The position numbers were made by a program, and so were the translations under genes. From Deltaproteobacteria bacterium (GTDB lineage: Bacteria > Desulfobacterota > Desulfobulbia > Desulfobulbales > Desulfurivibrionaceae), in NCBI GenBank assembly GCA_026388695.1, contig JAPLJH010000020.1:1-38591 (forward strand): a stretch of 38,591 nucleotides of DNA. The letters run 5' to 3'. Numbering within the stretch: position 1 is the stretch's first letter; the number at the start of each line of letters is the position of its first letter. The notes beneath the pieces are model-generated. The model made no database searches, was not told the origin of the DNA, and saw only the letters and a list, made by a program, of their open reading frames with translations. Below, one piece after another: positions 2 through 15,680 of the stretch.

Positions 2-253
2 TATAACCTCTTTTTCAAGGATTCGGTCAGGAAGGATCTGGATTCCATCCCAAAAAACGACCTGCGACGGATCATCGAGCGAATAGAAAGCCTTGCCGCA
101 AATCCCCGGCCCCTTGGTTGCGAAAAACTCTCCGGCCAGGAGAAATACCGCCTTCGCCAGGGAAATTACCGCATCATCTATTCGATACAAGACACGCAAC
201 TGACCGTTTGGGTGGTCAAGGTCGGCCACCGCCGGGAAGTCTACCGAAGCTAA
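2..253 (+). CDS. RelE/ParE-family toxin, 5'-truncated by the window edge
   Basis: An open frame runs from the first bases of the window to a TAA at 251-253 and gives 83 residues with no start codon, so the N-terminus lies outside. The residues follow the RelE/YafQ-like mRNA-interferase pattern: a helical part with IPKNDLRRIIERIESLAANP, then KLSGQEKYRLRQGNYRIIY and a C-terminal VVKVGHRREVYR, where the basic and aromatic residues of this fold lie. Family members are about 85-95 aa, so only a few residues are missing. A cognate antitoxin would be expected just upstream, out of view. RelE toxins cleave mRNA at the ribosome; activity of this copy is inference. Confidence 0.8.
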   Translation, partial: YNLFFKDSVRKDLDSIPKNDLRRIIERIESLAANPRPLGCEKLSGQEKYRLRQGNYRIIYSIQDTQLTVWVVKVGHRREVYRS

Positions 254-352
254 ATTTTCTCGCCTCGCCACTCCTCCTTTTTCTGAAAAACCCTCGCCCG
301 CGTCTGGGGCGAAGACGGGAAAAGTAGGGGCACTCCCCTAGTTTCCTCTACC

Positions 353-400
353 GAATCAAAGAATCAGGGAATCAGGGAATCAGGGAATCAGGGAATTATC
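353..400. repeat. 8-bp tandem repeat (GAATCAGG)n
   Basis: Four perfect head-to-tail copies of GAATCAGG occupy 361-392. They are flanked by degenerate copies GAATCAAA (353-360) and GAATTATC (393-400). The array ends 23 bp before the next start codon, so copy-number change could alter the leader of the downstream gene. No gene covers 254-423; apart from this array I see nothing else in that stretch. Confidence 0.9.
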
Positions 401-423
401 CCTACCTTCATCTTGGAACCACA

Positions 424-747
424 ATGAAAAAAAACTTTAAGTTGACCCACCCAAATATCAAAGTTCCAAGGCTGGTTGAAGCCATCAAATTTGAAGTGAG
501 AAAATATTTAAAGAGAGAACGGAATAAGCCGCTTCCCGATACGGTCGATTTTTGGGATTTTGACTGCCGGTTCGGGGCGGATGAGGAAAGCGCTGAGGTG
601 ATTCATGTGTCCGCCATCAACAAATCCATTGATGAGGCCGAAGCGAAACAGTTCGCATCCTTTTATTTGGAAATTCTGGCCAAACCGGGTCGTCGCACCA
701 AAAAGCCTGTGGAAGAGCCGCAAATAGACGGGAAAGAAGAAGTGTAG
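424..747 (+). CDS. DUF6172-like conserved hypothetical protein
   Basis: This encodes 107 aa beginning MKKNFKLTHPNIKVPRLVEA with a central VDFWDFDCRFG block. The pattern matches, from memory, the small DUF6172 proteins of proteobacteria; no biochemical role is known to me. It is a soluble, charged protein with no signal peptide or membrane segment and a Lys/Glu-rich tail. The start ATG at 424 has only a weak ribosome binding site (TTGGAA). The stop lies 15 nt before the start of the ArsC-like selenoprotein, which has its own strong site, so the two genes probably share a transcript. Confidence 0.75.
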   Translation: MKKNFKLTHPNIKVPRLVEAIKFEVRKYLKRERNKPLPDTVDFWDFDCRFGADEESAEVIHVSAINKSIDEAEAKQFASFYLEILAKPGRRTKKPVEEPQIDGKEEV

Positions 748-762
748 AGAAAGGAGGACACG

Positions 763-1107
763 ATGAAGATCGATTGGGCTTATCTGCGTAAGGGCTGAAC
801 CTCCTGCCGGAATGCTCAGGAGGTTCTTGAGCGGGAAAAGGTGGTGCTTGGCGAGGTGGTGGACGCCCGTACAGTGCGGCTGGATGACGCGGCGGCTTGG
901 GAGTTGCTGCGCCAGGCGGCGAAAATCACCGTGGCCAAGGGCAAGACGGTTTCAACGCTGACTCCGCAGCAGGACGGGAAGGACGCGATCCTCAAGCAGG
1001 TGATGGGGCCGAGCGGCAACCTCCGCGCCCCGACCCTGCAGGTGGGCGACGCGTTTGTGGTCGGCTTTCATCTCGATTTCTACCAACAATGGTTGCAGGG
1101 AAAATAA
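763..1107 (+). CDS. ArsC-family selenoprotein (thioredoxin fold, in-frame TGA = Sec12)
   Basis: Starting at ATG 763, six nt after a consensus AAGGAGG (751-757), the frame runs MKIDWAYLRKG, then TGA (796-798), then TSCRNAQEVL and on without a break to TAA at 1105-1107, giving 114 aa if TGA is read as selenocysteine. The TGA occupies the first position of a UxxC redox motif (Sec12-Thr-Ser-Cys15). That is where ArsC/Spx-like thioredoxin-fold proteins carry Cys. The C-terminal GNLRAPTLQVGDAFVVGF contains the cis-Pro region conserved in the family known as ArsC family (seleno)protein. SECIS-like hairpins lie just downstream of the TGA. A conventional gene caller would begin at 841 (GTG), which has no ribosome binding site and lacks the active site. 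Substrate unknown; a thiol/selenol oxidoreductase role is inferred. Confidence 0.92.
798..832 (+). promoter_or_regulatory. Candidate bacterial SECIS element (two alternative hairpins)
   Basis: Two mutually exclusive hairpins follow the TGA. The first pairs AACCTCCTG (798-806) with CAGGAGGTT (817-825), nine perfect pairs with a 10-nt loop. The second pairs GCTCAGG (814-820) with CTTGAGC plus one G-U pair (826-832) and exposes the loop AGGTT (821-825). That loop starts 22 nt after the TGA and has G at its second position. The second form fits the bacterial SECIS model (a loop G read by SelB at roughly 16-37 nt from UGA) better; the first is thermodynamically stronger by eye. Folding was done by hand. 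Confidence 0.7.
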
Positions 1108-1216
1108 TCCCTTGCCTTCAAGTATCGGGGTCACACAAGTATCGCTGGCAGGTCTTGAGAAATCAGTTTTGGGGAACAGGGAATCACGGGTGCCAAAGGG
1201 AGATCAGTAAATCATA

Positions 1217-1250
1217 TTGACCTGTTTAGCTAAATTGGTTATTTTAGCTT
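1217..1250 (+). promoter_or_regulatory. Promoter/operator of the Phd-RelE module
   Basis: A TTGACC box (1217-1222) and TATTTT (1240-1245) are 17 bp apart. They overlap an inverted repeat, AGCTAAA (1228-1234) and TTTAGCT (1243-1249), with an 8-bp spacer. A palindrome over the -10 box is the usual layout for autorepression by a Phd/YefM antitoxin-toxin complex. The functional reading is inferred from position. Confidence 0.55.
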
Positions 1251-1267
1251 TATCAGGAGGTGGTCCT

Positions 1268-1510
1268 ATGGAAATTACAGCCACGGAATTAAAAAACAGG
1301 TTCGGAAAATACCTTGATATCTCCAGGGTTGAGCCAGTGATTGTTGACAAAACCGGCAGAAAGACCGCAGTCTTACTTTCTTATGAGGAATACAAACGCC
1401 TCACTGAAATGGAAGACGCCTACTGGGCACAGAAGGCTCTCGGGGCAGAACAGGAAGGGTATGTCGGGACGGAAAAGAGTCTGGCCTCTCTGAAAGAGCA
1501 GCATGCTTAA
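1268..1510 (+). CDS. Phd/YefM-family antitoxin
   Basis: This 80-aa protein begins MEITATELKNRFGKYLDIS and continues PVIVDKTGRKTAVLLSYEEY, the standard Phd/YefM DNA-binding N-terminus, followed by an acidic helical tail that would wrap the toxin. I chose ATG 1268 because AGGAGG (1255-1260) sits just upstream; the frame is open back to a TTG at 1217, but that lies in the promoter/operator. The stop overlaps the toxin start by 8 nt, a coupling typical of toxin-antitoxin pairs. Such antitoxins neutralise the toxin and repress their own operon. Confidence 0.88.
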   Translation: MEITATELKNRFGKYLDISRVEPVIVDKTGRKTAVLLSYEEYKRLTEMEDAYWAQKALGAEQEGYVGTEKSLASLKEQHA

Positions 1511-1766
1511 ACTCGATCTGACCAAAAAAGCCTTGGGTTTTCTCGAACAGTTGCCGCCGAAGCAGTTCCGGCAGGTGGCGAACAAGGTGTTCGGCTTGAT
1601 GGAAAACCCGGAGCCAAACGATTCAAAAGCGCTGGTTGGTTACCCCTTTCGCCGTGCCGATATCGGGGAATATCGGATCGTTTACCGGGTGGAAGATGAT
1701 ATCCTGAAAGTGGCGCTCATCGGTAAGCGCAATGATGATGACGTCTATAGACAGCTGAAACGATAG
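1503..1766 (+). CDS. RelE/ParE-family toxin
   Basis: This encodes 87 aa with MLKLDLTKKALGFLEQLPPK at the N-terminus and PFRRADIGEYRIVYRVEDD near the middle, the core strand pattern of RelE-type toxins. The ending (LIGKRNDDDVYRQLKR) is also typical. It overlaps the upstream antitoxin by 8 nt and is full length for the family. It resembles the truncated toxin at the left edge only in fold-level motifs, so the two look like separate acquisitions. Ribosome-dependent mRNA cleavage is the known RelE activity; ParE-like gyrase poisoning cannot be excluded from sequence alone. Confidence 0.87.
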   Translation: MLKLDLTKKALGFLEQLPPKQFRQVANKVFGLMENPEPNDSKALVGYPFRRADIGEYRIVYRVEDDILKVALIGKRNDDDVYRQLKR

Positions 1767-1908
1767 CGAAAACTGGCGTCATCCCACTGTTTCACCCCAG
1801 CCAGACAACGCCGACACATGAGTGTTGCACGCCGGTCACCCCCACCAATACCTCTGAAACCTGACTCCCCTGCGCAAATGAGATCAGGCTCCATGCAAGG
1901 ATGCGCGC

Positions 1909-2781
1909 ATGACATCCATCCTCCAGTGCCCTGTTTGCCGAGAACCGCTGCTTGTAACCGCAACCGGCTACCAATGCGCCGCAAACCACAGCTTCGATGC
2001 CGCCCGCCAGGGGTATGTCAACCTGGTGCTTGCCCAGAACAAACATTCCAAAGAGCCGGGGGATGACCCGGAGATGGTCCTGAGCCGGAGACGGTTCCTG
2101 GACCTGGGGTATTACAATCCGGTCTCCGACGGGATCAACGAGGCCGTCGGTACCGTGCTGGCGGGGTTGGAGCGTGAAAACGAATGCTGCGTGCTTGATG
2201 CCGGTTGCGGTGAAGGGTTTTATCTCCAACGCCTCAAGGAGGCTCTGGCCCATACCCCTGAGGTGCGCCTCCCGATTACGTATCACGGCGTCGACGTGTC
2301 CAAGTTTGCGGTGCGCCAGGCCACCCAGCGCGACCGAACCATGGCGTGGTTCGTGGCGAGCATCAACGACCTGCCCTTTCTGGATACCTCCCTGGATCTC
2401 GTGCTCAATGTCTTTTCCCCGGCCAACATCCCGGAATTTTCCCGGATCCTCAAGCAGGGCGGCAGCCTCATCTTCGTCAACCCAGGGCCGAGACACCTCA
2501 ACGGCTTGCGGGAGATCATCTATCCGGTCACCCGGGAGCATGCCCCCCCTGCGATCACCGAAAAAGCCGAAGCGCTTTTTGCCCCTGCCACCGTGGCGCG
2601 GATCACCTACCCGCTTGCGCTTGCATCCAATCAGGAGATCATGGACCTGCTGGCCATGACCCCCTATTACTGGAACATCGATCAGGAAACCAAGGGTAAG
2701 GTGGCGGCCTTGGACCGGTTGGAGCTGGAAGTGGATGTGGAGATTCGGGTCTTCAAGAAAAAGAGCGCCGCCAGGGGGTAA
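1909..2781 (+). CDS. rlmA: RlmA-like 23S rRNA (guanine-N1) methyltransferase
   Basis: The 290-aa product has an N-terminal zinc finger (C7, C10, C23, H27) followed by FDAARQGYVNLV and the PGDDPEM segment. It then has a Rossmann methyltransferase domain with motif I VLDAGCGEGFYL at about residues 95-106. Later PGPRHLNGLREIIYP and LLAMTPYYW also match E. coli RlmA as I remember it. RlmA-type enzymes methylate N1 of a guanine in helix 35 of 23S rRNA (G745 in E. coli, G748 for the TlrB relatives) using SAM. The 142 bp before it show no clear promoter. A tylosin-resistance type specificity cannot be told apart by sequence alone. Confidence 0.85.
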   Translation: MTSILQCPVCREPLLVTATGYQCAANHSFDAARQGYVNLVLAQNKHSKEPGDDPEMVLSRRRFLDLGYYNPVSDGINEAVGTVLAGLERENECCVLDAGCGEGFYLQRLKEALAHTPEVRLPITYHGVDVSKFAVRQATQRDRTMAWFVASINDLPFLDTSLDLVLNVFSPANIPEFSRILKQGGSLIFVNPGPRHLNGLREIIYPVTREHAPPAITEKAEALFAPATVARITYPLALASNQEIMDLLAMTPYYWNIDQETKGKVAALDRLELEVDVEIRVFKKKSAARG

Positions 2782-2817
2782 ACGATCCGCTTCTTGCCCC
2801 GGACTGAATGCCCCCCA

Positions 2818-3618
2818 TCAGCGGTGATGTTCGGCAATCTTGGCAAACATCTGCACCAGTCCCGCGCAGAGGGTGTAGATGGATTTGATATGGAGATTGG
2901 TGCTGCAGGAGGCGTCGAAAAAGATGGTGAGCTTGGAGTGCAGGTCGCCTTCCGGCCCCTGGTAGCAGATGAGCAAGGGGATTTTCGGTAAGGGATAGAG
3001 AATCAGAGCGATATCCGCCTCGTACCAATCAACAGCCTTCCCCATGAAAAGCCCGATCAGGTCGGTGAGCAGATCCGGGTTGGCGTCCGCCAGTCTCCTG
3101 AGCGGTTCTTCGCAGCGGCTGGTGAAGAGCCCCTGCCATTCGATGCCCCCTGGAATCTCCCGAAAGGAGATCCAGTTGCCGCTGATCTCCGCATGGGTTT
3201 TGTGGGTGATGTAGGAGAGTAGCGGGGCCAGGACCCAGGGGATGATATGGCATTCTGAGCTCATCCTGCCCCGGCGGTCCAGAACGAAATCCTTGCCCAG
3301 GGAGTTGACGACTATGCTCTCGCCCTTGACGGTTGCCCCGATCAGGGGCGCAACCCGCTCCAGATCCAGCGCGGCCATCTTGGCTTGCAGCTTGTCGATG
3401 AACTCCGCCTGATTTTCTTCCTTGAGTCCTGGCTTCTGATACCTCCCGGAAAATTCCGCCGCAATATCCTGATCCAGGTCCGGGCACTCACCAAGCCTCC
3501 TGCTCCCCGCCACGATTGCCGCGGCAAAGGCGAGGCAGGAAGGAAGCTGGCATTTGCCGCAATTGGATTGCGGCAGAATCTTATAAACATCCAGGGGGGT
3601 GCAGGCGGCTTTGAACAT
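2818..3618 (-). CDS. [4Fe-4S]-motif protein with DUF3786 domain
   Basis: The 266-aa product opens with a cysteine motif C20-x2-C23-x4-C28-x16-C45. This is the Fe-S pattern (PF04060) of corrinoid Fe-S proteins and related redox proteins. The remaining 200 residues match the DUF3786 type, with ECHIIPWVLAPLLSYI and the ALILYPLPKIPLLICYQGP segment near the end. I take ATG at 3618; the frame is open upstream to a TTG at 3642, and neither has a good ribosome binding site. DUF3786 proteins are common in anaerobes, and their role is not established. The gene lies 44 nt downstream of the small ORF that starts at 3926, on the same strand. Confidence 0.82.
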   Translation of the reverse strand: MFKAACTPLDVYKILPQSNCGKCQLPSCLAFAAAIVAGSRRLGECPDLDQDIAAEFSGRYQKPGLKEENQAEFIDKLQAKMAALDLERVAPLIGATVKGESIVVNSLGKDFVLDRRGRMSSECHIIPWVLAPLLSYITHKTHAEISGNWISFREIPGGIEWQGLFTSRCEEPLRRLADANPDLLTDLIGLFMGKAVDWYEADIALILYPLPKIPLLICYQGPEGDLHSKLTIFFDASCSTNLHIKSIYTLCAGLVQMFAKIAEHHR

Positions 3619-3662
3619 AATGGCAGGGTAATGAAGAAACAAAGAAAGAACGAGGAAATTCC

Positions 3663-3926
3663 CTAGCCCTTTTCAAATTTTTTCATCTTATCCCCGATCC
3701 GGGAGGCTTTTTCGCATTGGGACCCTTGCTTGGGATTGCAGTCAAGGAGGATGGTCATCACCTTGTCGGCTGTTTTATTGCAACCGGCGTCTTCCAGCCG
3801 TCCCAAAATATCGGACATCAGCTTGTTGAATTGCACACATTTTTCGTAATCGGAAGAAGCACGCTGGTGGAGGATGGCCGCCTTCTCCAGGTCTTCCTTG
3901 ATATCTTTCGGGATTGATTGCGACAT
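3663..3926 (-). CDS. Small hypothetical protein
   Basis: This is an 87-aa, mostly helical, charged protein beginning MSQSIPKDIKEDLEKAAILH. It has four cysteines (EKCVQF, AGCNKT, LDCNPK, QCEK) and no signal or membrane segment. I recognise no family. It lies between topB (upstream) and the Fe-S/DUF3786 gene (downstream) on the same strand, so it may be part of an operon with either. Coding status rests on its open frame, codon use like its neighbours and the tight fit between genes. Confidence 0.6.
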   Translation of the reverse strand: MSQSIPKDIKEDLEKAAILHQRASSDYEKCVQFNKLMSDILGRLEDAGCNKTADKVMTILLDCNPKQGSQCEKASRIGDKMKKFEKG

Positions 3927-3995
3927 GTGGTCAGGTCCTTTGGGCGAAAACCAGGGACAGGTCAGGGGCAGATTCTACAACGCCATCTTTTTCGG

Positions 3996-6077
3996 TTACG
4001 GGCGATCCGATTTCTCCACTTTCTTCTGCCGCTCGGCCGAGGGCAACAACAGGTCCATGACCATGCCCTGGGTGGAGAGGATGAGCATCCGCGGCTCATC
4101 CTCGATCCTTACCGGCTGGGGCAGGATGTGCTGCTGGAGCAGCACCTGAACCTGTTTGGCCGTAAGGGTTACCCCCTTGCACTCCGGCTCGAGGACAAAT
4201 TCACAGCCATCCTTCCAGCCCGAGCAGCCGTAGGCTCGCTTCCCTTTGACCACCTCCTTGCCGCAGAGCGGACAGCTGCCCCAGCGTGCGGTGTCTAGCC
4301 GGGCGGCAGTGCTGCTCTGAATGAGGGTGCGGATGTAACCGCTGATTCCGGCCATGAACTCGTCGGGGTCGAGCTGGCTGCGCTCGATTTTCTTGAGTTT
4401 CTCCTCCCACTCCCCGGTCATCTCAGGCGACTTGAGCAACGGGTCCAGAATAAGAGCGATGAGGCAGCGCCCCATGTCGGTGCAGCGCAGCTGCTTTTTA
4501 TCGCGCTGGATATAGCCGCGGCTGAGCAGGGTTTCGATGATGGCCGCACGGGTGGCAGGGGTGCCGATGCCGCGCTCCTTGAGCGCTTCGCGCAAGGCAT
4601 CGTCCTCAACGAATTTACCCGCCGCCTCCATGGCCCCGAGCAGCGAGTTTTCGTTAAAATGCTTGGGCGGGATGGTTTTGCCTTCACGCAGGGATGGCTC
4701 GTGCGGGCCGGTTTCTTCCTTGGCAAAGGCTGGCAGACTCTGCTCCTCGGCCGCGTCCTGGCTCTGCTTCTTGTTCTGAAAAAGCACGGTCCATCCGGGT
4801 TCGACGACCTGAGTCCCTTTGGCCTCGAATTTCATCCCGTTGCTGACCCCGTCCACCGTGGTGATATTTTTAACGCAGACCGGATAGAAGGCGGCGATGA
4901 ACTGGGTGGTGATCGCCTCGTACACCAGCTGCTCCTGGGCATTAAGGCCGCGCGGCGCGACGCCGGTGGGGATGATGGCGTGGTGGTCGCTCACCTTGGT
5001 GTCGTCGATGATCCGCTTAGTGAACGGCAATTTCGCCAGGTTGAGGGGCGCAACATCTTCCGGGCGGAAAGATTTGAGCTGCGCCAAAATTTGAGGAATC
5101 CGCGGCTGCAGATCCTTGCTCAGGTAGCGGGAATCGGTTCGCGGATAGGTGACAAATTTTTTTTCGTAGAGATTCTGGGTGGCGGCAAGGGTATCGGCAG
5201 CCGAGAGCCCGTGCAACTTGTTGATTTCCCGCTGCAGGGTGGTGAGATCAAAGAGCTGGGGCGGCTGCTCTTTTTTCTCCTTTGCGACAATCCCGGTGAT
5301 GGCAAAGGGCTGATCAATGATTTTTTCCAGCAGGGCCTGGGCCTTTTCCTGCTTTTCGAAACGCTTGCCCGTATACTTGAACACCACCTCCCGGTAGCGG
5401 GTGGTGAGTTCCCAGAACAGCTGGGGCCGGAACTGGAGGATGGTGTCGTCGCGCTCCACGATCATGGCCAGGACCGGGGTCTGCACCCTGCCGATACTCC
5501 AGAGCACCCGATCGTTGCCGCCGCCGATCCGACCGTGGCGCACGGTGTAGTACCGGGTGGCATTGAGGCCGACAATCCAATCGGACTCGCTGCGGCAGCG
5601 GGCTGCGGCATAGAGCGCATCGTAGTCGTGGCCGTCCTTGAGATCCTTGAACGCCTCCTGGATCGCGTCCGGGGTGAGCGAATTGAGCCAGAGGCGGCGG
5701 ATCGGCTTATCCTCGCAGTTGCACAGCGCCAGGATGTAGCGAAAAATCAACTCCCCTTCCCGCCCGGCATCCGTGGCGCAGATAATCTCATCGGCCTGCT
5801 GGCACAGGGTTTCGATAACCTTAAACTGCTCGTCCACCCCGCGATTTTGAATCAGGGTGAGTTTGAATTTTTCCGGCACAAACGGGAGGGTTTCCAACGA
5901 CCAGCGCTTGAGGGCGGGATCATAGTCCCCCGGTTCCTGGAGGGTGACAAGATGCCCGAAAGCCCAGGTGATCGCGCAGCCCCGCCCCTCGATATAGCCC
6001 TTCTTCTTGGCCTTGATATCGAGAACCTCGGCAATATCGCGCGCCACAGAGGGTTTCTCGGCAATAATAACTTTCAT
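3996..6077 (-). CDS. topB: DNA topoisomerase III
   Basis: The 693-aa type IA topoisomerase has an N-terminal Toprim domain (IIAEKPSVARDIAEVL at 4-19 with Glu7, and DAGREGELIFRYI from 103). It has the interrupted archway/gate domains and the catalytic Tyr311 in FVTYPRTDSRYLS. A C-terminal zinc-ribbon-like CPLCGKEVVKGKRAYGC element is followed by a further conserved tail. The enzyme relaxes and decatenates DNA through a 5'-phosphotyrosine intermediate. The length agrees with TopB. A 490-aa open frame on the opposite strand is a shadow of this gene. The start ATG at 6077 has only a weak ribosome binding site. Confidence 0.95.
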   Translation of the reverse strand: MKVIIAEKPSVARDIAEVLDIKAKKKGYIEGRGCAITWAFGHLVTLQEPGDYDPALKRWSLETLPFVPEKFKLTLIQNRGVDEQFKVIETLCQQADEIICATDAGREGELIFRYILALCNCEDKPIRRLWLNSLTPDAIQEAFKDLKDGHDYDALYAAARCRSESDWIVGLNATRYYTVRHGRIGGGNDRVLWSIGRVQTPVLAMIVERDDTILQFRPQLFWELTTRYREVVFKYTGKRFEKQEKAQALLEKIIDQPFAITGIVAKEKKEQPPQLFDLTTLQREINKLHGLSAADTLAATQNLYEKKFVTYPRTDSRYLSKDLQPRIPQILAQLKSFRPEDVAPLNLAKLPFTKRIIDDTKVSDHHAIIPTGVAPRGLNAQEQLVYEAITTQFIAAFYPVCVKNITTVDGVSNGMKFEAKGTQVVEPGWTVLFQNKKQSQDAAEEQSLPAFAKEETGPHEPSLREGKTIPPKHFNENSLLGAMEAAGKFVEDDALREALKERGIGTPATRAAIIETLLSRGYIQRDKKQLRCTDMGRCLIALILDPLLKSPEMTGEWEEKLKKIERSQLDPDEFMAGISGYIRTLIQSSTAARLDTARWGSCPLCGKEVVKGKRAYGCSGWKDGCEFVLEPECKGVTLTAKQVQVLLQQHILPQPVRIEDEPRMLILSTQGMVMDLLLPSAERQKKVEKSDRP

Positions 6078-6211
6078 CGAACGATTTTCTCGCGGTCAAT
6101 ATGTTCTTCTGTTACAAAGGAGACAGCATGACAGTTGACGCCCCCCCGTACAGACCAGGCGCCGCACCCTAAACCGAATCAGCCGGTGACGCAAGGCGGG
6201 AAGTTCCTTGA

Positions 6212-6234
6212 TATTCTGGCGACTCCCCAGAATA
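6212..6234. repeat. Inverted repeat between topB and the Fic gene
   Basis: TATTCTGG (6212-6219) and CCAGAATA (6227-6234) form eight perfect pairs around a 7-nt spacer. It sits between two divergent genes, so a terminator role is unlikely; a protein-binding site or a cruciform is possible. Confidence 0.5.
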
Positions 6235-6263
6235 CTTGATCATAGAACAACTACTAAGGTTTT

Positions 6264-6283
6264 CTTAACAGTTCAATGTTAAG
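6264..6283. promoter_or_regulatory. Operator-like palindrome upstream of the Fic gene
   Basis: CTTAACA (6264-6270) and TGTTAAG (6277-6283) are a perfect 7-bp inverted repeat with a 6-bp spacer, 30 bp before the chosen start. It lies in an AT-rich stretch where a promoter would be expected. Autoregulation by the downstream protein is only a guess. Confidence 0.45.
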
Positions 6284-6312
6284 GCATAAAAAAATTTTAG
6301 GGGTAATTGTCA

Positions 6313-7308
6313 ATGGCCAGTGAAATTGTCATCTACCAGCAAGAGGGGCATGTCGTTGAAGTGCGTTTAGATGGTAATCGGGACACGATCTGGCTGAGTC
6401 AAAGACAGATGGGCGACTTGTTTGACAAAGATAGTGATACCATCGGGTTACATCTGAAAAACATCTACAAAACTGGCGAACTGGATCAAAATACAACTAC
6501 CGAACAATCCTCGGTAGTTCGCCAGGAAGGCAAGCGTCAGGTTAAACGGGAAATCCTTTTTTACAATCTTGATACCGTTATTTCAGTGGGGTATCGGGTC
6601 AACTCAAAACGTGCTGTTCACTTTCGCCAATGGGCTACCCGTATTCTGCGTGAGCACCTGACCCAGGGCTGGACCCTCAATCGCCAGCGTTTTGAGGCCA
6701 ACGCCCGTGAGCTTGAGGCTGCACTATCGCTGGTGCGCAAGGCAGCACAAAGTCCGGAACTGCTTATCGATGCCGGCCGGGGCCTGGTTGAGATCGTCAG
6801 CCGCTACGCACAAACCTTTTTGCTGCTGCAGCGCTACGACGAAGGCCTGCTGACCGCACCGCCTACCCAAACGGGTGGCGTTTTGCAGACGGTGACGGAG
6901 GCACGTGCTGCCCTGGCAGGATTAAAGACCGAACTGATCAGCCGCAAGGAAGCAACCCCGCTCTTTGCCCAAGAGCGGGAGAATGGGCTGGCCTCGTTGC
7001 TCGGCAATCTGGATCAGACGGTCTTTGGCGAACCGGCCTATCCCAGCATTGAAGCCAAGGCCGCCCACCTGCTCTATTTTGTCATTAAAAACCACCCGTT
7101 TGCCGATGGCAATAAACGCAGTGGGGCCTTTCTCTTTGTTGATTTTCTAAATCGCAATCATCGTCTGCTCAACGAACAGGGCGAGCCGGTGATCAATGAT
7201 ATTGGCTTGGCAGCGCTGACTTTGCTAGTTGCCCAATCAGACCCGGCCAACAAGGAAACAATGATCCGCCTGATTATGAATATGCTGGCCCATGAGATGG
7301 CAGCATAG
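6313..7308 (+). CDS. RhuM-Fic/DOC fusion protein
   Basis: This encodes 331 aa. Residues about 1-120 match the RhuM (virulence RhuM/BRO-like) domain: IWLSQRQMGDLFDKDSDTIG, then an HxKNIYKTGEL-like helix and FYNLDTVISVGYRVNS. The C-terminal part is a Fic/DOC domain with the signature HPFADGNKRSGAF at 261-273, His261 being the catalytic residue. Fic enzymes transfer AMP or another phosphate-containing group to protein hydroxyls; the target here is unknown. I chose ATG 6313 over a TTG six bases upstream. No antitoxin gene is visible next to it, so inhibition may be built in or encoded elsewhere. Confidence 0.88.
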   Translation: MASEIVIYQQEGHVVEVRLDGNRDTIWLSQRQMGDLFDKDSDTIGLHLKNIYKTGELDQNTTTEQSSVVRQEGKRQVKREILFYNLDTVISVGYRVNSKRAVHFRQWATRILREHLTQGWTLNRQRFEANARELEAALSLVRKAAQSPELLIDAGRGLVEIVSRYAQTFLLLQRYDEGLLTAPPTQTGGVLQTVTEARAALAGLKTELISRKEATPLFAQERENGLASLLGNLDQTVFGEPAYPSIEAKAAHLLYFVIKNHPFADGNKRSGAFLFVDFLNRNHRLLNEQGEPVINDIGLAALTLLVAQSDPANKETMIRLIMNMLAHEMAA

Positions 7309-7367
7309 CGAAATTCGAAAAAACCAGTTAACCCCATAAAAAACAGCAAGGTACAAGCAGACAAACC

Positions 7368-7850
7368 GTGAAAATACGCCCACTCACCCCGGAAAATTAC
7401 CCCAAGGCTTCGGCCCTGTTGCGGCAGGCATTCCCCCGCAGCACCAAGGAAGTGCAACTGGTGGAAAATCTCCACAAGAACGGCAAACCGGTGCATGAGT
7501 GGGTGTGCATCCATATCAATGCGGTCATCGCCTATATCGCTTTTACCACGGCCTACAATGGCTCGGCTGCGTGCGGCCTGCATCTGGCACCGTTAGCGGT
7601 GAAGCCGGAGTTTCAAAGGCAAGGGATCGGCTCCGAGTTGCTGCGCTTTGCCCTACGGCAGGAGGCTATCAGGGATAAGACCATCTTTGTTTTGGGTGAT
7701 CCCCGCTTTTATCAAAAATTTGGCTTTGCTCCCTGCGTCATGCCGATTTGTCCCTTTGACAAAAACAATGCCCATTTCCTGAGCCTGCGCAATAACACCG
7801 CCAGCCAGTTCACGGTGGGGTATGAGGCGGAGTTTGGGGCTAAGAGTTAG
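7368..7850 (+). CDS. GNAT-family N-acetyltransferase (YhbS-like)
   Basis: The 160-aa protein shows the GNAT core: LHLAPLAVKPEFQRQGIGSE is strand 4 plus the acetyl-CoA pyrophosphate-binding loop (Q/RxxGxG/A). GDPRFYQKFGFAP is the typical C-terminal part of the YhbS/Eis-like group. The start is GTG at 7368 (KIRPLTPENY), 59 nt after the Fic stop, so the genes may be co-transcribed. The acyl acceptor cannot be named from sequence. Confidence 0.85.
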   Translation: MKIRPLTPENYPKASALLRQAFPRSTKEVQLVENLHKNGKPVHEWVCIHINAVIAYIAFTTAYNGSAACGLHLAPLAVKPEFQRQGIGSELLRFALRQEAIRDKTIFVLGDPRFYQKFGFAPCVMPICPFDKNNAHFLSLRNNTASQFTVGYEAEFGAKS

Positions 7851-7883
7851 ATTGGCATTTATGGCAGGAGAGGTGTCCCGGCG

Positions 7884-8417
7884 CTACTTCATCTTTGACC
7901 GCAGCTTGATCTTTTCTCCGGCAACCATGAAATTACCGCTGCCGAGATGATGGATTGTCCGGGGGTTTTTCACGGCGGAGTCGATCCAGGCCTTGACCAC
8001 TTCAAGGACAAACAAGCAATACTTGGCCACCATCTCTGTATCGACCACCCGGCACTCAAGATTGGCAAAGCACTCCTCGATAAGCGGGGCGCCGACTTGC
8101 GTGGCAGGCCTAGCCGTGAGGCCAAACCGCTCGAACTTGTCTGTATTCGCCCCCGAGGTATTGCCGCACCCCACGACCTTTTCCGCTATCTCTACGGTGG
8201 GAATGTTGATGACGCATTCGTTGGTTGCCTGTAGCAGGCCGAAGGTATGGTTGCCGCTGATGACGCAACCCACCAGAGGCGGCTCAAACTCGAGCATGGT
8301 GTGCCACGACATGGTCATGATGTTTAAGCGTCCGTCGAGGGCAGTGGTGAGCAGGACAACCGGCCCCGGTTCGAGCAGGCCATAGACCTCGGACAGAGGA
8401 AAGGATTTTCTGGCCAT
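7884..8417 (-). CDS. Flavin reductase-like FMN-binding protein
   Basis: The 177-aa product, starting MARKSFPLSEVYGLLEPGPV, contains VVLLTTALDGRLNIMTMSWH and the VGCVISGNHTFGLLQATNEC region of the flavin-reductase-like split-barrel domain (FlaRed family). These proteins bind FMN and in several cases reduce flavin with NAD(P)H. I chose ATG 8417, which follows AAGGGAG at good spacing; the frame is open further upstream across the intergenic hairpin. The gene lies downstream of the BCAM0308-like gene on the same strand. Confidence 0.85.
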   Translation of the reverse strand: MARKSFPLSEVYGLLEPGPVVLLTTALDGRLNIMTMSWHTMLEFEPPLVGCVISGNHTFGLLQATNECVINIPTVEIAEKVVGCGNTSGANTDKFERFGLTARPATQVGAPLIEECFANLECRVVDTEMVAKYCLFVLEVVKAWIDSAVKNPRTIHHLGSGNFMVAGEKIKLRSKMK

Positions 8418-8437
8418 GTTAGACTCCCTTGCAACAA

Positions 8438-8467
8438 CGCCGCCCTTCTCCCTTCGGCAGGGCGGCG
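8438..8467 (-). terminator. Intergenic GC-rich hairpin (possible attenuator/terminator)
   Basis: CGCCGCCC (8438-8445) and GGGCGGCG (8460-8467) pair perfectly over eight bases. On the minus strand it follows the BCAM0308-like gene and precedes the flavin reductase ribosome binding site. Only a short TTGTTG follows, so termination would be partial. Confidence 0.5.
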
Positions 8468-8482
8468 TCCCTGATCGTCCGG

Positions 8483-8968
8483 TTATTCCCGAACCCAAGT
8501 AAGTCGGATGATTTTTTCGCCATCACCGTAGGTAAAATCAAGCTCTCCCTGGTAGGCGTTGTTCAAGGCCTCGCCAATCCGCCGGGCCAGGTGGATGCCC
8601 GTGGTTGTTACGAGGGTGCGGCCCTCTTCCTCGGCAATGGCCATGAGCCGCTCCATGGGATGCGCCTTTTTCTCCTGGGCCTCCAGGTTGTGAATCAGGT
8701 TGGTGATCTCCTCGCGATGGGTTCCGTAAAATCCACCCCGGATTTCCAGGTAACCGGCCGGGAAATTATCCTTGATGCGCTGGCAGGCCGGACAGACGAT
8801 GGCATGGGCATTGACCGCCGCCTCCCACCAGGCCCAACGGCCCTCCAGGAACACGGCCCCGCATACGCTGCATACCGTGGGCTCGGGCAACTTCCGCCGT
8901 TCATGATAGGTGTCATGCCGCTTTTCCTGAATCAGCCGATCCCTTCTCCCATATTGGCCTTTGTCCAT
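8483..8968 (-). CDS. BCAM0308-like zinc-ribbon protein
   Basis: The 161-aa soluble protein has a Cys4 zinc ribbon (CSVC at about 33-36, CPAC at about 59-62) with the conserved GRWAWWEA between the pairs. It then has RIKDNFPAGYLEIRGGF, HREEITNLIHNLE and TTTGIHLARRIGEAL. This order matches the family labelled BCAM0308 in databases, from memory, which somewhat resembles the N-terminal part of NMD3. Function is not established. A TATAAT box on the minus strand at 9101-9106 may be its -10 element. The ATG at 8968 follows a GGAGAG site. Confidence 0.75.
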   Translation of the reverse strand: MDKGQYGRRDRLIQEKRHDTYHERRKLPEPTVCSVCGAVFLEGRWAWWEAAVNAHAIVCPACQRIKDNFPAGYLEIRGGFYGTHREEITNLIHNLEAQEKKAHPMERLMAIAEEEGRTLVTTTGIHLARRIGEALNNAYQGELDFTYGDGEKIIRLTWVRE

Positions 8969-9223
8969 ACTGTTTCTCTCCTTGTCGTTTGCTGTTCACC
9001 TTCAGGCAGCATCACTTCCTGCAAGGGCAGACTGGCCATGCCCGTTTCGCTATAATGGTCCCTCCCTCTGTTTTTGTTGAGTCAGACTCCCCATGTTTAA
9101 ATTATACATCCAGCTACCAGGTAAAACACAAGCTCCAAATCAGTTTTATTTACGCACCTCATTCCCTGCCATGCGGCACGGAATAACAGGGGTATCTTCC
9201 CATTTTTCCGCAGGAATACCCAC

Positions 9224-9253
9224 TTGACATTCCGACAGACAATGGTCCATCAT
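9224..9253 (+). promoter_or_regulatory. Sigma70-like promoter of the SAP/coiled-coil gene
   Basis: A perfect TTGACA (9224-9229) is followed after 18 bp by CATCAT (9248-9253), and a strong GGGGAGGGA ribosome binding site lies at 9281-9289. The rest of the 327-bp gap 8969-9295 holds a TATAAT at 9051-9056 without a -35 box, another on the minus strand at 9101-9106, and a short hairpin GGGCA/TGCCC (9025-9043). No gene is seen there. Confidence 0.55.
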
Positions 9254-9295
9254 CATTAACATGACAGATAAACTTTTTTTGGGGAGGGACCTGCA

Positions 9296-9784
9296 ATGGA
9301 CATGACACAAGTCAAAGAAAAAGCGAAACAGCTTGGCATCCAGGTCGGCAAGATGAAGAAGGTGGATTTGATTCGAGCCATCCAGAGCAAGGAGGGCAAT
9401 TTCCCCTGCTTTGAGACGGCAAAGGATTATTGCAGCCAACTAACCTGCGCTTGGCGAAAGGCCTGCCTCCCATCCAAGGAAATGGAGAAAAAACACGAAC
9501 AGACCAAAAATCTCTACCTGAAAAAAATAAAGGCCGAGCTGGAAACCCTCACGAACAAGCTTGCCGATCTTAAAAAGAAATCGCAAAAAACCATGGGAGC
9601 AGGCAAGACAGAGGCACTGGCCGAGATCCACAAGCTCGAAAAAAAGATTGAGGACCTCAAGAAAAATGCCCATGGGCTTGCCACGGCGAGCGAAGATGCC
9701 TGGGAAATTACCAAGCAGGGGGTCGATAAAGCATGGAAAGGTCTGCGCGATTCAGCCAAAAAGGCCTTGGCGAAATTCAGCTGA
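9296..9784 (+). CDS. SAP-like domain protein with Cys cluster and coiled coil
   Basis: The 162-aa product starts with a helix-extended-loop-helix of SAP/Rho-N type (VKEKAKQLGIQVGKMKKVDL, then IRAIQSKEGN). Next come four closely spaced cysteines (C38, C46, C51, C57), then a long Lys/Glu-rich coiled coil and a Trp-containing amphipathic tail. The SAP-like part followed by the Cys cluster recurs in small deltaproteobacterial proteins; the coiled-coil tail is reminiscent of stress-related helical proteins. The SAP part suggests nucleic-acid binding and the cysteines a metal site; both are inference. It is a single gene with its own promoter. Confidence 0.72.
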   Translation: MDMTQVKEKAKQLGIQVGKMKKVDLIRAIQSKEGNFPCFETAKDYCSQLTCAWRKACLPSKEMEKKHEQTKNLYLKKIKAELETLTNKLADLKKKSQKTMGAGKTEALAEIHKLEKKIEDLKKNAHGLATASEDAWEITKQGVDKAWKGLRDSAKKALAKFS

Positions 9785-9830
9785 GGGTTCGGTGGCGTGA
9801 TGGGGTTTGGGGCCGAACCTCGACAAAAAA

Positions 9831-10511
9831 TCAGCGCGAGATGGTGAAATCCCACCCCATTTCAATCGCCAGCCATTGCGGAAGCAGCATTCGTGAACGG
9901 GAAAAATCCAAGCCCGAGTTTTCGATATAATCCTGTAATGCCGTTGAAAACGGGCTGGCCGCCGTGACCACCGATCGGAGCATCAGCGGCGCGTCTGCGC
10001 TAGATTCCGGATCGTTTGCCACCTGGCAGGACTGGGGCTGCGAAGAGACAAAATGCGTGCGGCACACCACCGGCCGCACGGGATAGGCGCCACACACCCC
10101 ATTGACATCAAGCGGGCAGGAATGGTCGTAGCAGGAAAGATCTGCCAGCTCGTCGATGGTGGACAACGGATGCCTGCCAGGTTTGGCATCGTCCCACGCA
10201 TGCCATTGCTGGGTGCGCAGACGAAGGCCGCGTATCTGCTCTGCGGAGAATTCCCGCCTGATATATTGCGCCAAGGTGTGGGCCTCGGCACTGTTGGTAA
10301 GGATATGATACCGGCAACAGTGGCAACAGCCCGGTTTACAACTTGGCAAGATGCCCTCTTCGCACCGCAGCCGATCCAGTTCGCAGGCAATTGCCGCATC
10401 CAAAGAAGCATACACACCGATGACAAAATGCTCTTGCGGGGCAATGGGGATATCGGCTCCGAATTCCATAGTGTCATTACCGGAACAGCCATTTTCAATC
10501 AGGTTTATCAT
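9831..10511 (-). CDS. YkgJ-family cysteine-cluster protein
   Basis: The 226-aa protein has the CKPGCCHCC cluster near residue 60 and further Cys in CYDHSCPLDVNGVCGAYPVR with the trailing RPVVCRTHF. That is the CxxxCxxCC-type zinc or Fe-S binding signature of the YkgJ (UPF0153-like) family. Function is unknown; relatives are often linked to metal-dependent modification. The ATG at 10511 follows AAGGA closely; a second ATG 14 codons further in is possible. It has no signal peptide. Confidence 0.82.
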   Translation of the reverse strand: MINLIENGCSGNDTMEFGADIPIAPQEHFVIGVYASLDAAIACELDRLRCEEGILPSCKPGCCHCCRYHILTNSAEAHTLAQYIRREFSAEQIRGLRLRTQQWHAWDDAKPGRHPLSTIDELADLSCYDHSCPLDVNGVCGAYPVRPVVCRTHFVSSQPQSCQVANDPESSADAPLMLRSVVTAASPFSTALQDYIENSGLDFSRSRMLLPQWLAIEMGWDFTISR

Positions 10512-10683
10512 TCTTCCTTTTTTTGGGCAGGGACTTCAGACAGGGACAAGGCCATAAGTCCGATCAGCATGAGCCGACAAATTTATTGGCACAAACGTCC
10601 CACGCATCACTTGTAGATTCGCGTGCAAGACGCGTGCGACATTCTACCACCGCCGTTGCAGTTCTTTCGGGTGCATACGCATG

Positions 10684-11364
10684 TTAGCGGACCGCAGTTA
10701 CGAACGGGCGAAGCCTCTTCCAATCTTCTCTTTGCACAGCCAGCGGCCTATGAGTATTGCGTATCCTTGCGCCGCAATGGTACACGGCGAATGCGCGGCT
10801 TCCATTCGGGAGAATTCTTCCACCGACCGCTTCAACTTCTGAGCGAAAGGGACCGCACTCCATGGCGAACCCGCGAAGAATCGTGCGGTACGCACGTTCA
10901 CCGAGTCCGACGACAACCTTTGGATGAACGATTTCAATTTGGCGGCGAAGGAAGTTCGCACAGTTAACGAACCAAGACGCACTGACCTTTCCTTGAAGCC
11001 CGCCTTGAGCATCCTTCAAGCAGAGAATCGCGTTGGTAAAGAAAGCAACGTCGCGACCGAATTTGGAGCCTGGTTCTCCGATCAAAATTCCGGCAATACC
11101 GACCAGTTCCACAAGCGCAAGATTCGTCGGATTGCGTGGCCCTTCGCGCCCTTCACGACGAACGAAGTACGACGTGTCACCCCAGTCTTGGCCGACAACC
11201 ATCAGGGACGCATCGAGGTTCCCCTGCCAGAGCGACCACGCACCAATATGTTCCGAATCGAATCGACCGCCGTTGACATCTGCGGGGTTCGTCAGTCCGC
11301 AACAGAGATGACATGCCTTTCTGTCGGCAACCACTTGGGCGTAGGGAGCTGTCCTCTTCATCAC
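10684..11364 (-). CDS. Uracil-DNA glycosylase superfamily protein
   Basis: The 226-aa product has CHLCCGLTNPADVNGG at the N-terminus, then SLMVVGQDWGD (motif 1 of the UDG superfamily, a GQDxG variant) near residues 54-64. It continues FFTNAILC, VVVGLGERAYRTIL and a C-terminal AVYHCGARIRNTHR where the second UDG motif lies. The enzyme type (uracil excision or another base) cannot be fixed, since both catalytic motifs deviate from UdgA/UdgB as I know them. The N-terminal Cys residues may be part of an Fe-S or zinc site. Confidence 0.7.
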   Translation of the reverse strand: MMKRTAPYAQVVADRKACHLCCGLTNPADVNGGRFDSEHIGAWSLWQGNLDASLMVVGQDWGDTSYFVRREGREGPRNPTNLALVELVGIAGILIGEPGSKFGRDVAFFTNAILCLKDAQGGLQGKVSASWFVNCANFLRRQIEIVHPKVVVGLGERAYRTILRGFAMECGPFRSEVEAVGGRILPNGSRAFAVYHCGARIRNTHRPLAVQREDWKRLRPFVTAVR

Positions 11365-11397
11365 CTGGATCCGGCTAACAAGTTATCCTGCGAATAT

Positions 11398-11425
11398 GGC
11401 TATCATGCCGAAAATCATGATAGCC
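11398..11425. repeat. Perfect 10-bp inverted repeat downstream of pit
   Basis: GGCTATCATG (11398-11407) and CATGATAGCC (11416-11425) flank an 8-nt loop. It lies between the end of the pit gene and the start of the UDG-like gene, both on the minus strand. No T-run follows on the minus strand, so it is a weak terminator at best, or an operator of the UDG-like gene. Confidence 0.55.
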
Positions 11426-11496
11426 AGAAATATAGGCAAAAAATGGCAGGAAAAAATACGCTATTGGTCGCCCCAACACACGGAACTTTCGCCGTC

Positions 11497-12861
11497 TTAC
11501 TTACCAAGCCCCACAAGCATCAGCAACTCATACGAAAGCGCAGCAACCAACCCGGCGGCTGGAAGGGTCAGAACCCAGGCCATGACCATGCTCTGCGCCA
11601 CACCCCAACGCACTGCGGACAGCCGCTTGCTGGCGCCCACCCCGAAGATGCTGCCGGAGATGACGTGGGTGGTGCTCACCGGCATGCCAAAATGGCTGGT
11701 CACGAAGAGGACGATGGCGGAGGAGGTCTCGGCGGCAAAGCCGTGCACCGGCTCCAGCCGGATAATCTTATGCCCCATGGTCTTGATGATCCGCCAGCCG
11801 CCCACCGAGGTTCCCAGGGCCATGGCGATGGCGCAGGAGAATACCACCCAGGTGGGAACCACGGGCTCGGGGATCAGCCGGGCGCTTACCAGAGCCATGG
11901 TGATGATACCCATGCTTTTTTGGGCGTCGTTCAGGCCGTGGGTAAAGGCCATGGCCGCGGCGGAAACAATCTGTAGGTTGCGGAAACTCGCGCTCACCCG
12001 GCCGGGATGCACATGGGCAAGGGTTTTGAAGATAATGCCCATAAGAATAAAGCCGATGATAAAGCCCATGGCAGGAGAACCAACCAGTGGGATCAACACC
12101 TTATGGACAATCCCGCCCCACAGAACCGTGGGCAGCCCGCCGTGGATGATGGCCGCCCCGCACAGACCGCCGATCAGGGCGTGGGAAGAGCTGCTGGGGA
12201 TGCCGTATTTCCAGGTGATCAGGTTCCAGACGATGGCGCCGAGGATGGCGGCCAGGATAACCACCTGGAAGGCCTGCTGGTTTGAATCAAGCTCTTGAGG
12301 GTAGGCCTTTTCCAGCAGGGCGCGGTTGGTGTTGGCCAAATCTTCCGGTTTCAGCTTGGTGGCATCCTTGATCTTTGCCACCGTCTTCTCCTTGAGCGCG
12401 ACCCCGGCGAACCGCTCGGCGGAATAGAGATCGGCTTGGGTGATGGCGCGGTTCAAGTCAGCCACCATGGCACTCTGCAACTCCGGGGAGGCAGCGGTGC
12501 CCACGGTGTATTGCTTGAGCAACCCCTGGGTTGCGGGAGAAAGCCCCGTTGCCAGATATTGGGAGACCGGATCAGCGGGATTTTTCAGCTTGGCGGCAAA
12601 CTCTGCCGGCTGATGGATATCAACGGTCTGAAACCGCGCCGTATCGACCAGGCCGCTGGCAACCGTGATCGCCACCTGAGTGGAAACCAGGGCGCCGACG
12701 AAGTTCAGACAGGCCGCCATGACAATCGCCTTGCGCGGCGAGAGCACCCGGGTGGAGACCACTGTGGCGATGGCGTTGGCCGTATCATGAAAGCCGTTGA
12801 TATAGTCGAAGGCCAGGGCACAGACCACAACCAGGGCGAGTAACAGCGACACACTAAGCAT
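11497..12861 (-). CDS. pit: PiT-family inorganic phosphate permease
   Basis: The 454-aa polytopic protein carries the two PiT signature repeats: FDYINGFHDTANAIATVVST at the N-terminus and THGLNDAQKSMGIITMAL in the second half. It also has GFAAETSSAIVLF and GMPVSTTHVISGSIFG. A hydrophilic segment of roughly 100 residues (about 75-190) splits the first set of helices. Members carry H+- or Na+-coupled phosphate (metal-phosphate) uptake across the inner membrane. The start overlaps the DUF47 gene stop by 8 nt, so the two are co-translated. Confidence 0.93.
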   Translation of the reverse strand: MLSVSLLLALVVVCALAFDYINGFHDTANAIATVVSTRVLSPRKAIVMAACLNFVGALVSTQVAITVASGLVDTARFQTVDIHQPAEFAAKLKNPADPVSQYLATGLSPATQGLLKQYTVGTAASPELQSAMVADLNRAITQADLYSAERFAGVALKEKTVAKIKDATKLKPEDLANTNRALLEKAYPQELDSNQQAFQVVILAAILGAIVWNLITWKYGIPSSSSHALIGGLCGAAIIHGGLPTVLWGGIVHKVLIPLVGSPAMGFIIGFILMGIIFKTLAHVHPGRVSASFRNLQIVSAAAMAFTHGLNDAQKSMGIITMALVSARLIPEPVVPTWVVFSCAIAMALGTSVGGWRIIKTMGHKIIRLEPVHGFAAETSSAIVLFVTSHFGMPVSTTHVISGSIFGVGASKRLSAVRWGVAQSMVMAWVLTLPAAGLVAALSYELLMLVGLGK

Positions 12862-13483
12862 ATTTCACAACCACGCTTTCGATGATGTGGGCGACATCTT
12901 CGCATTTGTCCACCGCCACTTCGATCCGGTCGTACACCGCCTTCCATTTGATGACGTTGATCGGGTCCGCATCCGGGGCATTGAGCAGGCTGGCCAGCGC
13001 CTTACGGAAGGCGGCGTCGTGCTCGTTCTCGATCTGGTGAATGCGGATGAAAAGATCCTGGACATTATCCCGGTTTGGCTTGGTGCGCAGCGTCTTGACC
13101 GTATCCAGCGTGGCTTCGGTGATCCGCACCAGCCGCACCACCAGCCCTTCCAGATCGGGGCGCAGTTCCTTCAGTTCGTAGAGCGCCATCCTGCCGGTGC
13201 AGGCCTCAATGCAATCGGTTATGTCGTCCAGCGCGCTGGACAGGGCGTGCAGATCTTCCTTGTCCAACGGGGTGACAAAGGTGGCATCGATCCGATTGGC
13301 CAGCTCATGGGTGATGTGGTCGGCCTCGCTCTCTATCTCCTTGATCCTGGCTGCGTGCGTGGCGAGATTGGCGAAGTCATTGACCAAGGCCTGAAATTCC
13401 ATGGCCGCATCCACCGCGGCCTGCGCCTGTTTTTCTAGCAGCGCGTAAAAACCCTGCTTCTTGTTTAATCCTGGAAAACGCAC
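12854..13483 (-). CDS. DUF47/PhoU-like Pit accessory protein
   Basis: The 209-aa all-helical protein matches the DUF47 (TIGR00153-like) family, with FAREAARIKEIE-type heptads, EADHITHELANRIDATFVTP, LSSALDDITDCIEA and the C-terminal KWKAVYDRIEVAVDKCEDVA. The pair of acidic E-x3-D helices is the PhoU-type metal site. Such proteins accompany Pit permeases and probably regulate them. I chose GTG 13483 because AAGGAGG lies 7 nt upstream; a TTG earlier in frame would fall inside that site. First gene of a two-gene operon with pit. Confidence 0.9.
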   Translation of the reverse strand: MRFPGLNKKQGFYALLEKQAQAAVDAAMEFQALVNDFANLATHAARIKEIESEADHITHELANRIDATFVTPLDKEDLHALSSALDDITDCIEACTGRMALYELKELRPDLEGLVVRLVRITEATLDTVKTLRTKPNRDNVQDLFIRIHQIENEHDAAFRKALASLLNAPDADPINVIKWKAVYDRIEVAVDKCEDVAHIIESVVVKYA

Positions 13484-13504
13484 AAGCTTACCTCCTTGCA
13501 AAAT

Positions 13505-13536
13505 GAAAAAACAGGGCGATCACACACAGAATCGCC
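13505..13536 (-). terminator. Terminator after the VWA-OmpA gene
   Basis: On the minus strand GGCGAT pairs with ATCGCC (13515-13520 with 13531-13536), followed by CTGTTTTTTC. It lies directly after the stop of the VWA-OmpA gene and separates it from the DUF47-pit operon. Confidence 0.65.
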
Positions 13537-13544
13537 GAAAATAA

Positions 13545-15584: not shown

Positions 15585-15680
15585 GGTGTTGCTCCTGTGG
15601 CGGATGCGAAAGCGCATCACGAAGGCAAAGATTTTGCGAATTTTTTCTAAGCAAGAAGGACGCGGGCGGACTGAAGGCCC

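Follow-up and report, generated by a model that had tools for sequence, protein, structure and literature searches.

Classical arsenate reductases of the ArsC type carry a CxxS motif. A family of small proteins named after them, NCBIfam NF041106 ("ArsC family (seleno)protein"), is presented in PMC13188914 as an arsenate reductase-like selenoprotein with a UxxC motif, and selenoproteins referred to as "ArsC-like" or "distant ArsC homolog" are listed for Desulfotalea psychrophila and Desulfuromonas acetoxidans in PMC1794560. No title naming a functional study of the NF041106 family was found in a search that covered subscription journals thinly. The bSECIS hairpin, which is expected downstream of a UGA that is read as selenocysteine (Sec), is modelled with a loop of 3-9 nt that has a G within its first two nucleotides, a stem of 4-16 bp, a distance of 16-37 nt from the UGA and a minimum free energy of -7.5 kcal/mol or lower (PMC13188914, Figure 2 legend). 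Here, we describe a gene in a window of 38,591 nt (i.e., the whole stretch of DNA that was analysed, which is an entire contig) from a Deltaproteobacteria genome of 2.58 Mb in 114 contigs (86.93% complete). Judging from comparative sequence data, an in-frame TGA at positions 796-798 of this gene almost certainly codes for Sec at the active site of a small redox protein.

The gene is located on the forward strand at positions 763-1107. A Shine-Dalgarno sequence, AAGGAGG (751-757, +), is found 5 nt upstream of the ATG at 763, in agreement with the strong ribosome-binding site of the original prediction, and the frame continues through 11 sense codons, the TGA at 796-798 (+) and 102 further sense codons to the TAA at 1105-1107. 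Translation yields a 114-residue protein, which starts with MKIDWAYLRKG followed by U12, and confirms both the predicted codon counts and the position of the TGA as the opening residue of a UxxC motif (U12-T-S-C15; the residues after U12 are TSCRNAQ). The GNLRAPT block that had been noted further downstream comprises residues 85-91. Because the GTG at 841 is codon 27 of the 114-residue frame and the TGA is codon 12, a gene call that starts at this GTG drops both the active site and Sec, as predicted, and the gene is a clear example of a case where standard gene calling would shorten a gene in this manner.

The selective constraint around the TGA was estimated by comparing the window gene with 30 relatives, each at least 55% identical. 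The pN/pS ratio was 0.028 for codons 1-11, 0.29 for codons 13-26, 0.42 for codons 27-60 and 0.36 for codons 61-107. Substitutions on the 5' side of the TGA are nearly all synonymous in these relatives, a codon-level signature of strong purifying selection ahead of the TGA. Because the ratio is low in the blocks that flank the TGA, the sequence is coding on both sides. The NF041106 profile, which matches the product with 120.5 bits (curated cut-off 85, E 4.3e-35) over residues 3-107, also spans both sides of the TGA; the protein belongs to the family by a score above the cut-off together with Sec or Cys at the first UxxC position.

Members of the family were identified in 84 of 146 genomes, including that of the window, at 85 places, of which 80 contain one in-frame TGA and five contain none. 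In a separate draw of 395 genomes from the phylum, 36 displayed a match at E <=0.001; the 28 that scored above the cut-off, 12 of which were already in the set of 146 genomes, all contain one TGA, while the eight below the cut-off are divided into five with and three without TGA. The former five, each with one in-frame TGA (G210, G479, G386, G515 and G256), possibly represent another selenoprotein family. The pooled loci comprise 154 places, which correspond to 126 distinct sequences; L093 is a fragment, and L067 contains a second stop. In this set, the codon at position 12 is TGA in 121 sequences, TGT in four and TGC in one, and the TGA is kept down to about 35% identity. Cultured bacteria with the TGA form include Desulfocicer vacuolatum (L073) and Malonomonas rubra (L070). 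A stop-aligned or unrelated residue in the homologues at this position, which would argue against Sec, was not observed in any of the 126 sequences, i.e., only TGA or Cys is found, and Trp at position 12 is absent from the same set. The five Cys forms (L022, L032, L038, L100 and L113) all belong to a single genus, g20, which also harbors a TGA form (G041); they possibly reflect a recent change from Sec to Cys accompanied by decay of the downstream hairpin. Residues W5, Y7 and A18 are invariant in all 126 sequences, R9 and G11 are found in 125, and the motif G-x-L-R-x-P is found in 124, the exceptions being the fragment and the sequence with the second stop. Position 15 is occupied by Cys in 122 sequences and by Ser in four, three of which are Sec forms with UxxS (L083, L137 and L169) and one a Cys form with CxxS (L113), i.e., the resolving Cys is not universal. 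A tblastn search of 50,697 phage records (E 0.01) did not yield any relatives.

The original prediction proposed a search of the genome for selA, selB, selC and selD, and all four were found, the complement expected of a genome that encodes bacterial selenoproteins. SelA (617 bits), two copies of SelB (367 and 365 bits) and SelD (374 bits) scored above their cut-offs, and so did the tRNA-Sec (72.5 bits), which was identified by ARAGORN as tRNA-SeC with anticodon TCA. The selD gene (L018, contig C10 of G000) is itself interrupted by one in-frame TGA, flanked by KAAG and AAK in the translation, and it probably encodes another selenoprotein, as judged from its sequence. The two selB regions (L001 and L002, contigs C77 and C99) are about 90% identical over 4.9 kb and perhaps originate from two strains in one genome bin. 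A selA match was found in 132 of the 146 genomes, in 77 of the 84 that harbor the NF041106 family and in 55 of the 62 that do not; because selA is near-universal among the relatives, its presence lifts a refutation but carries no discriminating power. Three genomes (G063, G070 and G120) have a TGA-type family gene, selB and tRNA-Sec, and selA was not found in them. The gene found after selA in G117 starts at a contig end in G120, and parts of the G063 sequence read N. The missing selA is probably a data gap in these two genomes, an account that does not extend to G070. SepSecS, which could stand in for SelA, was sought in nine genomes and gave a single sub-threshold match (G130) and none above the cut-off.

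A bSECIS-type hairpin that the original prediction did not describe, GCUCAGGA-GGU-UCUUGAGC, is found at 814-832 (+), with an 8-bp stem, a 3-nt loop and 23 nt between the UGA and the loop. The scan suggested in the original prediction thereby returned an element that fits the published model, with its GGU loop, the distance of 23 nt, a free energy of -10.1 kcal/mol and a stem of 9 pairs when the U-G pair 813-833 is included. The segment 811-840 folds at -10.7 kcal/mol, and none of 200 shuffled sequences folded as well. A scan of the window for in-frame TGA codons preceded by at least 8 codons, followed by 60 and with Cys two or three residues away gave 12 places, of which only 796 satisfies all bSECIS limits. 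Four Rfam matches were obtained between 400 and 1800 at a permissive threshold, all of them under the gathering scores.

Comparison of the Sec genes supports selection on this hairpin. At least seven of the eight pairs are found in 56 of 121 Sec genes, versus a mean of 4.6 and a maximum of 15 in 200 synonymous-codon resamplings. Both members of a pair vary: at pair 816-830 these 56 genes have U-A in 33, C-G in 13, G-C in three, U-G in one and non-pairs in six. A score for hairpins with G in the loop, which was designed after the sequences had been seen and was run on 120 Sec genes (the fragment L093 being too short), had an observed mean of 15.0 versus the expected 6.8; for 67 of the 120 genes individually, 300 resamplings gave a value below 0.05. 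The corresponding numbers at five control offsets located downstream, with 60 resamplings each, were 0, 7, 2, 5 and 6 of 120, and the observed mean exceeded the expectation by at most 1.2. The two arms are also linked beyond the codon usage of each column (z 5.8 in the column-wise control). An energy of -7.5 kcal/mol is reached as a single unbroken helix in 42 of 120 Sec genes versus 65 of 1200 control positions; 84 of 120 reach -5 kcal/mol, and some qualifying stem is found in 119 of 120. In the Cys genes, which are not independent of each other because they all belong to g20, the loop-G score is 0 in five of five and none reaches -7.5 kcal/mol. Four of the five keep six or seven of the eight pairs, and L113 still forms a stem of 6 bp whose loop starts with G (-5.1 kcal/mol). 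The loop is AUC in four of the five Cys genes and G-first in 55 of the 56 Sec genes with at least seven pairs. Hence, the contrast between Sec and Cys genes is not clean and the difference is mainly in the loop and the energy. Because only 42 of the 120 Sec genes reach -7.5 kcal/mol, the Cys genes partly keep their stems and are not independent, and the score was defined post hoc, the 814-832 hairpin has good support as a Sec signal, not proof.

The window protein has no match to the Pfam ArsC family (PF03960) at E values up to 1, and its glutaredoxin-type Pfam matches fall below the threshold (12.4 versus 22.9 bits). In 33 aligned members (the window protein and 32 of the 43 loci from the relative search, with 11 loci excluded) weak Pfam matches were obtained to glutaredoxin in 19 and to ArsC in 11 (E up to 0.1, best 0.00051). 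When the profile of these 33 members was compared with the PDB, Spx ranked first (3l78, E 7.3e-5), with YffB at rank 6 (1rw1, E 0.0015) and 2m46, a putative arsenate reductase, at rank 8 (E 0.016). An AlphaFold2 model of the window protein (pLDDT 94.7, pTM 0.88) returned, in a fold search, Spx chains at ranks 1-6 (6gho, E 2.4e-4), a glutaredoxin chain at rank 7 and YffB at rank 8, with TM scores of about 0.5 and high rmsd values, three of the matches being at E <=0.001. The predicted assignment to the ArsC family is upheld by the NCBIfam name, whereas the missing Pfam ArsC match and the Spx and YffB structures as nearest neighbors do not follow it. Profile and model suggest a remote relationship of the protein with Spx, YffB and ArsC, and the evidence favors a redoxin of the Spx/YffB kind over an arsenate reductase.

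The TGA could in principle be an ordinary stop codon, such that the locus is either a pseudogene or a shorter gene that starts at GTG 841 and encodes 88 residues lacking the active site. An open reading frame does extend from 841 to 1107 in the standard code and is preceded by AGGAGG at 818-823, though 17 nt away from the GTG. However, this reading is extremely unlikely because a stop that is held in place across nearly all of the 126 sequences, between conserved flanks, is not the result of decay, and both the very low pN/pS ahead of the TGA and the extent of the NF041106 match contradict it. Decoding of the UGA as another amino acid, such as Trp or Cys, by a changed code or a suppressor without SelB would be in line with the five homologues that have Cys at position 12. 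The chance of such decoding is close to negligible given the complete set of tRNA-Sec, SelA, SelB and SelD in the genome, the hairpin 3' of the UGA that fits the bSECIS model, and the absence of Trp at this position. A further scenario starts from the Sec reading itself. A second hairpin of 10 bp, with arms at 797-806 and 817-826 (797-826, +), overlaps the UGA, excludes the 814-832 hairpin and is preferred to it when 796-850 is folded alone. The two could act together as a switch that regulates how the UGA is decoded. Both hairpins pair perfectly in the window; all pairs of the 10-bp hairpin are present in eight of 121 Sec sequences, and its pairing exceeds the expectation when synonymous codons are resampled gene-wide (7.5 versus 6.5 of 10 pairs, z 10.1, 120 Sec genes). 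However, this excess disappears when codon usage is kept per position (z -0.7, i.e., no linkage of the arms), while that of the bSECIS hairpin stays. The gene-wide excess could be accounted for by the arm shared with the bSECIS, and because the 10-bp hairpin includes two bases of the UGA, a ribosome at this codon would already have melted it. The second hairpin is probably a by-product of conserved residues and the shared arm, and a switch is very unlikely; we attach equally little weight to the more restricted proposal that the two exclusive hairpins would tune Sec insertion versus termination in the window's own genus.

A true arsenate reductase with Sec would account for the family name, the sequence clan, the weak Pfam ArsC matches of some members and the presence of 2m46 among the profile matches. 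In opposition to this assignment, the window protein itself lacks a Pfam ArsC match, the top profile and fold matches are Spx, and UxxC is unlike the CxxS of classical ArsC. Furthermore, a scan of ten reading frames within 2-15620 did not yield any ars-family match above the cut-off. Gene neighborhoods were compared for 68 of the 126 distinct loci, those of at least 4 kb (the other 58 were excluded), and no common neighbor was found in more than 10 of them. Inspection by eye of the best 25 recurring neighbor groups, the largest of which is found in 10 of the 68 loci, gave no functional hint, i.e., these groups consist of proteins with common domains, groups from few loci and overlapping frames. 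Arsenate reduction by the window protein is unsupported, and we consider a true arsenate reductase improbable. Near the gene (2-253, 1268-1510, 1503-1766 and 6307-7308) there are RelE-like frames, a Phd-family antitoxin and a DOC (death-on-curing) domain protein, where the RelE and DOC matches are under the curated cut-offs and the Phd match is above.

Taken together, the reading of the TGA as Sec in the original prediction is supported by the sel genes, by the restriction of codon 12 to TGA or Cys and by the bSECIS-type hairpin, and the comparative signature, i.e., TGA or Cys only, constrained flanks and a selected hairpin, strongly backs Sec. We are highly confident that Sec would be inserted at UGA 796 by a SelB-mediated mechanism, and the most likely role of the product is that of a selenol/thiol oxidoreductase. 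The combined picture, in which SelB-dependent insertion yields an oxidoreductase of the thioredoxin fold with U12-T-S-C15 at its active site, is, on the sequence and model data, one in which we place very great confidence. In this mechanism, as the ribosome reaches the UGA at 796-798, the mRNA hairpin at 814-832 would present its GGU apical loop, to which SelB carrying Sec-tRNA-Sec would bind, and Sec would be placed at residue 12 in lieu of termination. The product would be a small thioredoxin-like protein in which Sec12 resides directly ahead of the first helix. Sec12 would act as the attacking selenolate and Cys15 would resolve the selenenylsulfide, while the conserved G-x-L-R-A-P loop is probably the substrate site.

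Among the described proteins, glutaredoxins share the thioredoxin-like fold and an N-terminal redox motif with the window protein and appear at rank 7 of the fold search, whereas the protein remains under the Pfam cut-off for them. Spx and YffB (PDB 3l78, 1z3e, 6gho and 1rw1) are the best solved relatives by both profile and fold, and their CTSC is aligned with UTSC. The window protein differs from them by its low identity of about 16-22%, the TM score of about 0.5 and the high rmsd of 6-8.5. Spx binds the C-terminal domain of the RNA polymerase alpha subunit, and the window protein resembles it only remotely in sequence and fold. The middle region of Spx and ArsC is generally all-helical, whereas the model has two strands there, between the helices at 42-49 and 68-80. 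Among named sequences, the protein is closest to those of a Desulfurivibrio sp. (82% identity) and of an uncultured delta proteobacterium (85%), which makes it probable that the source bacterium is related to these. The ArsC-like selenoproteins described in PMC1794560 also contain Sec and appear there among the Deltaproteobacteria, to which the best named relative found here belongs as well, and they likely belong to the NF041106 family. With the members of NF041106, the window protein shares the UxxC motif at the N-terminus, with Sec or Cys at the same site, and 35-86% identity to the relatives compared; no feature was found that distinguishes it from them, and the gene is a typical new member of an already catalogued selenoprotein family.
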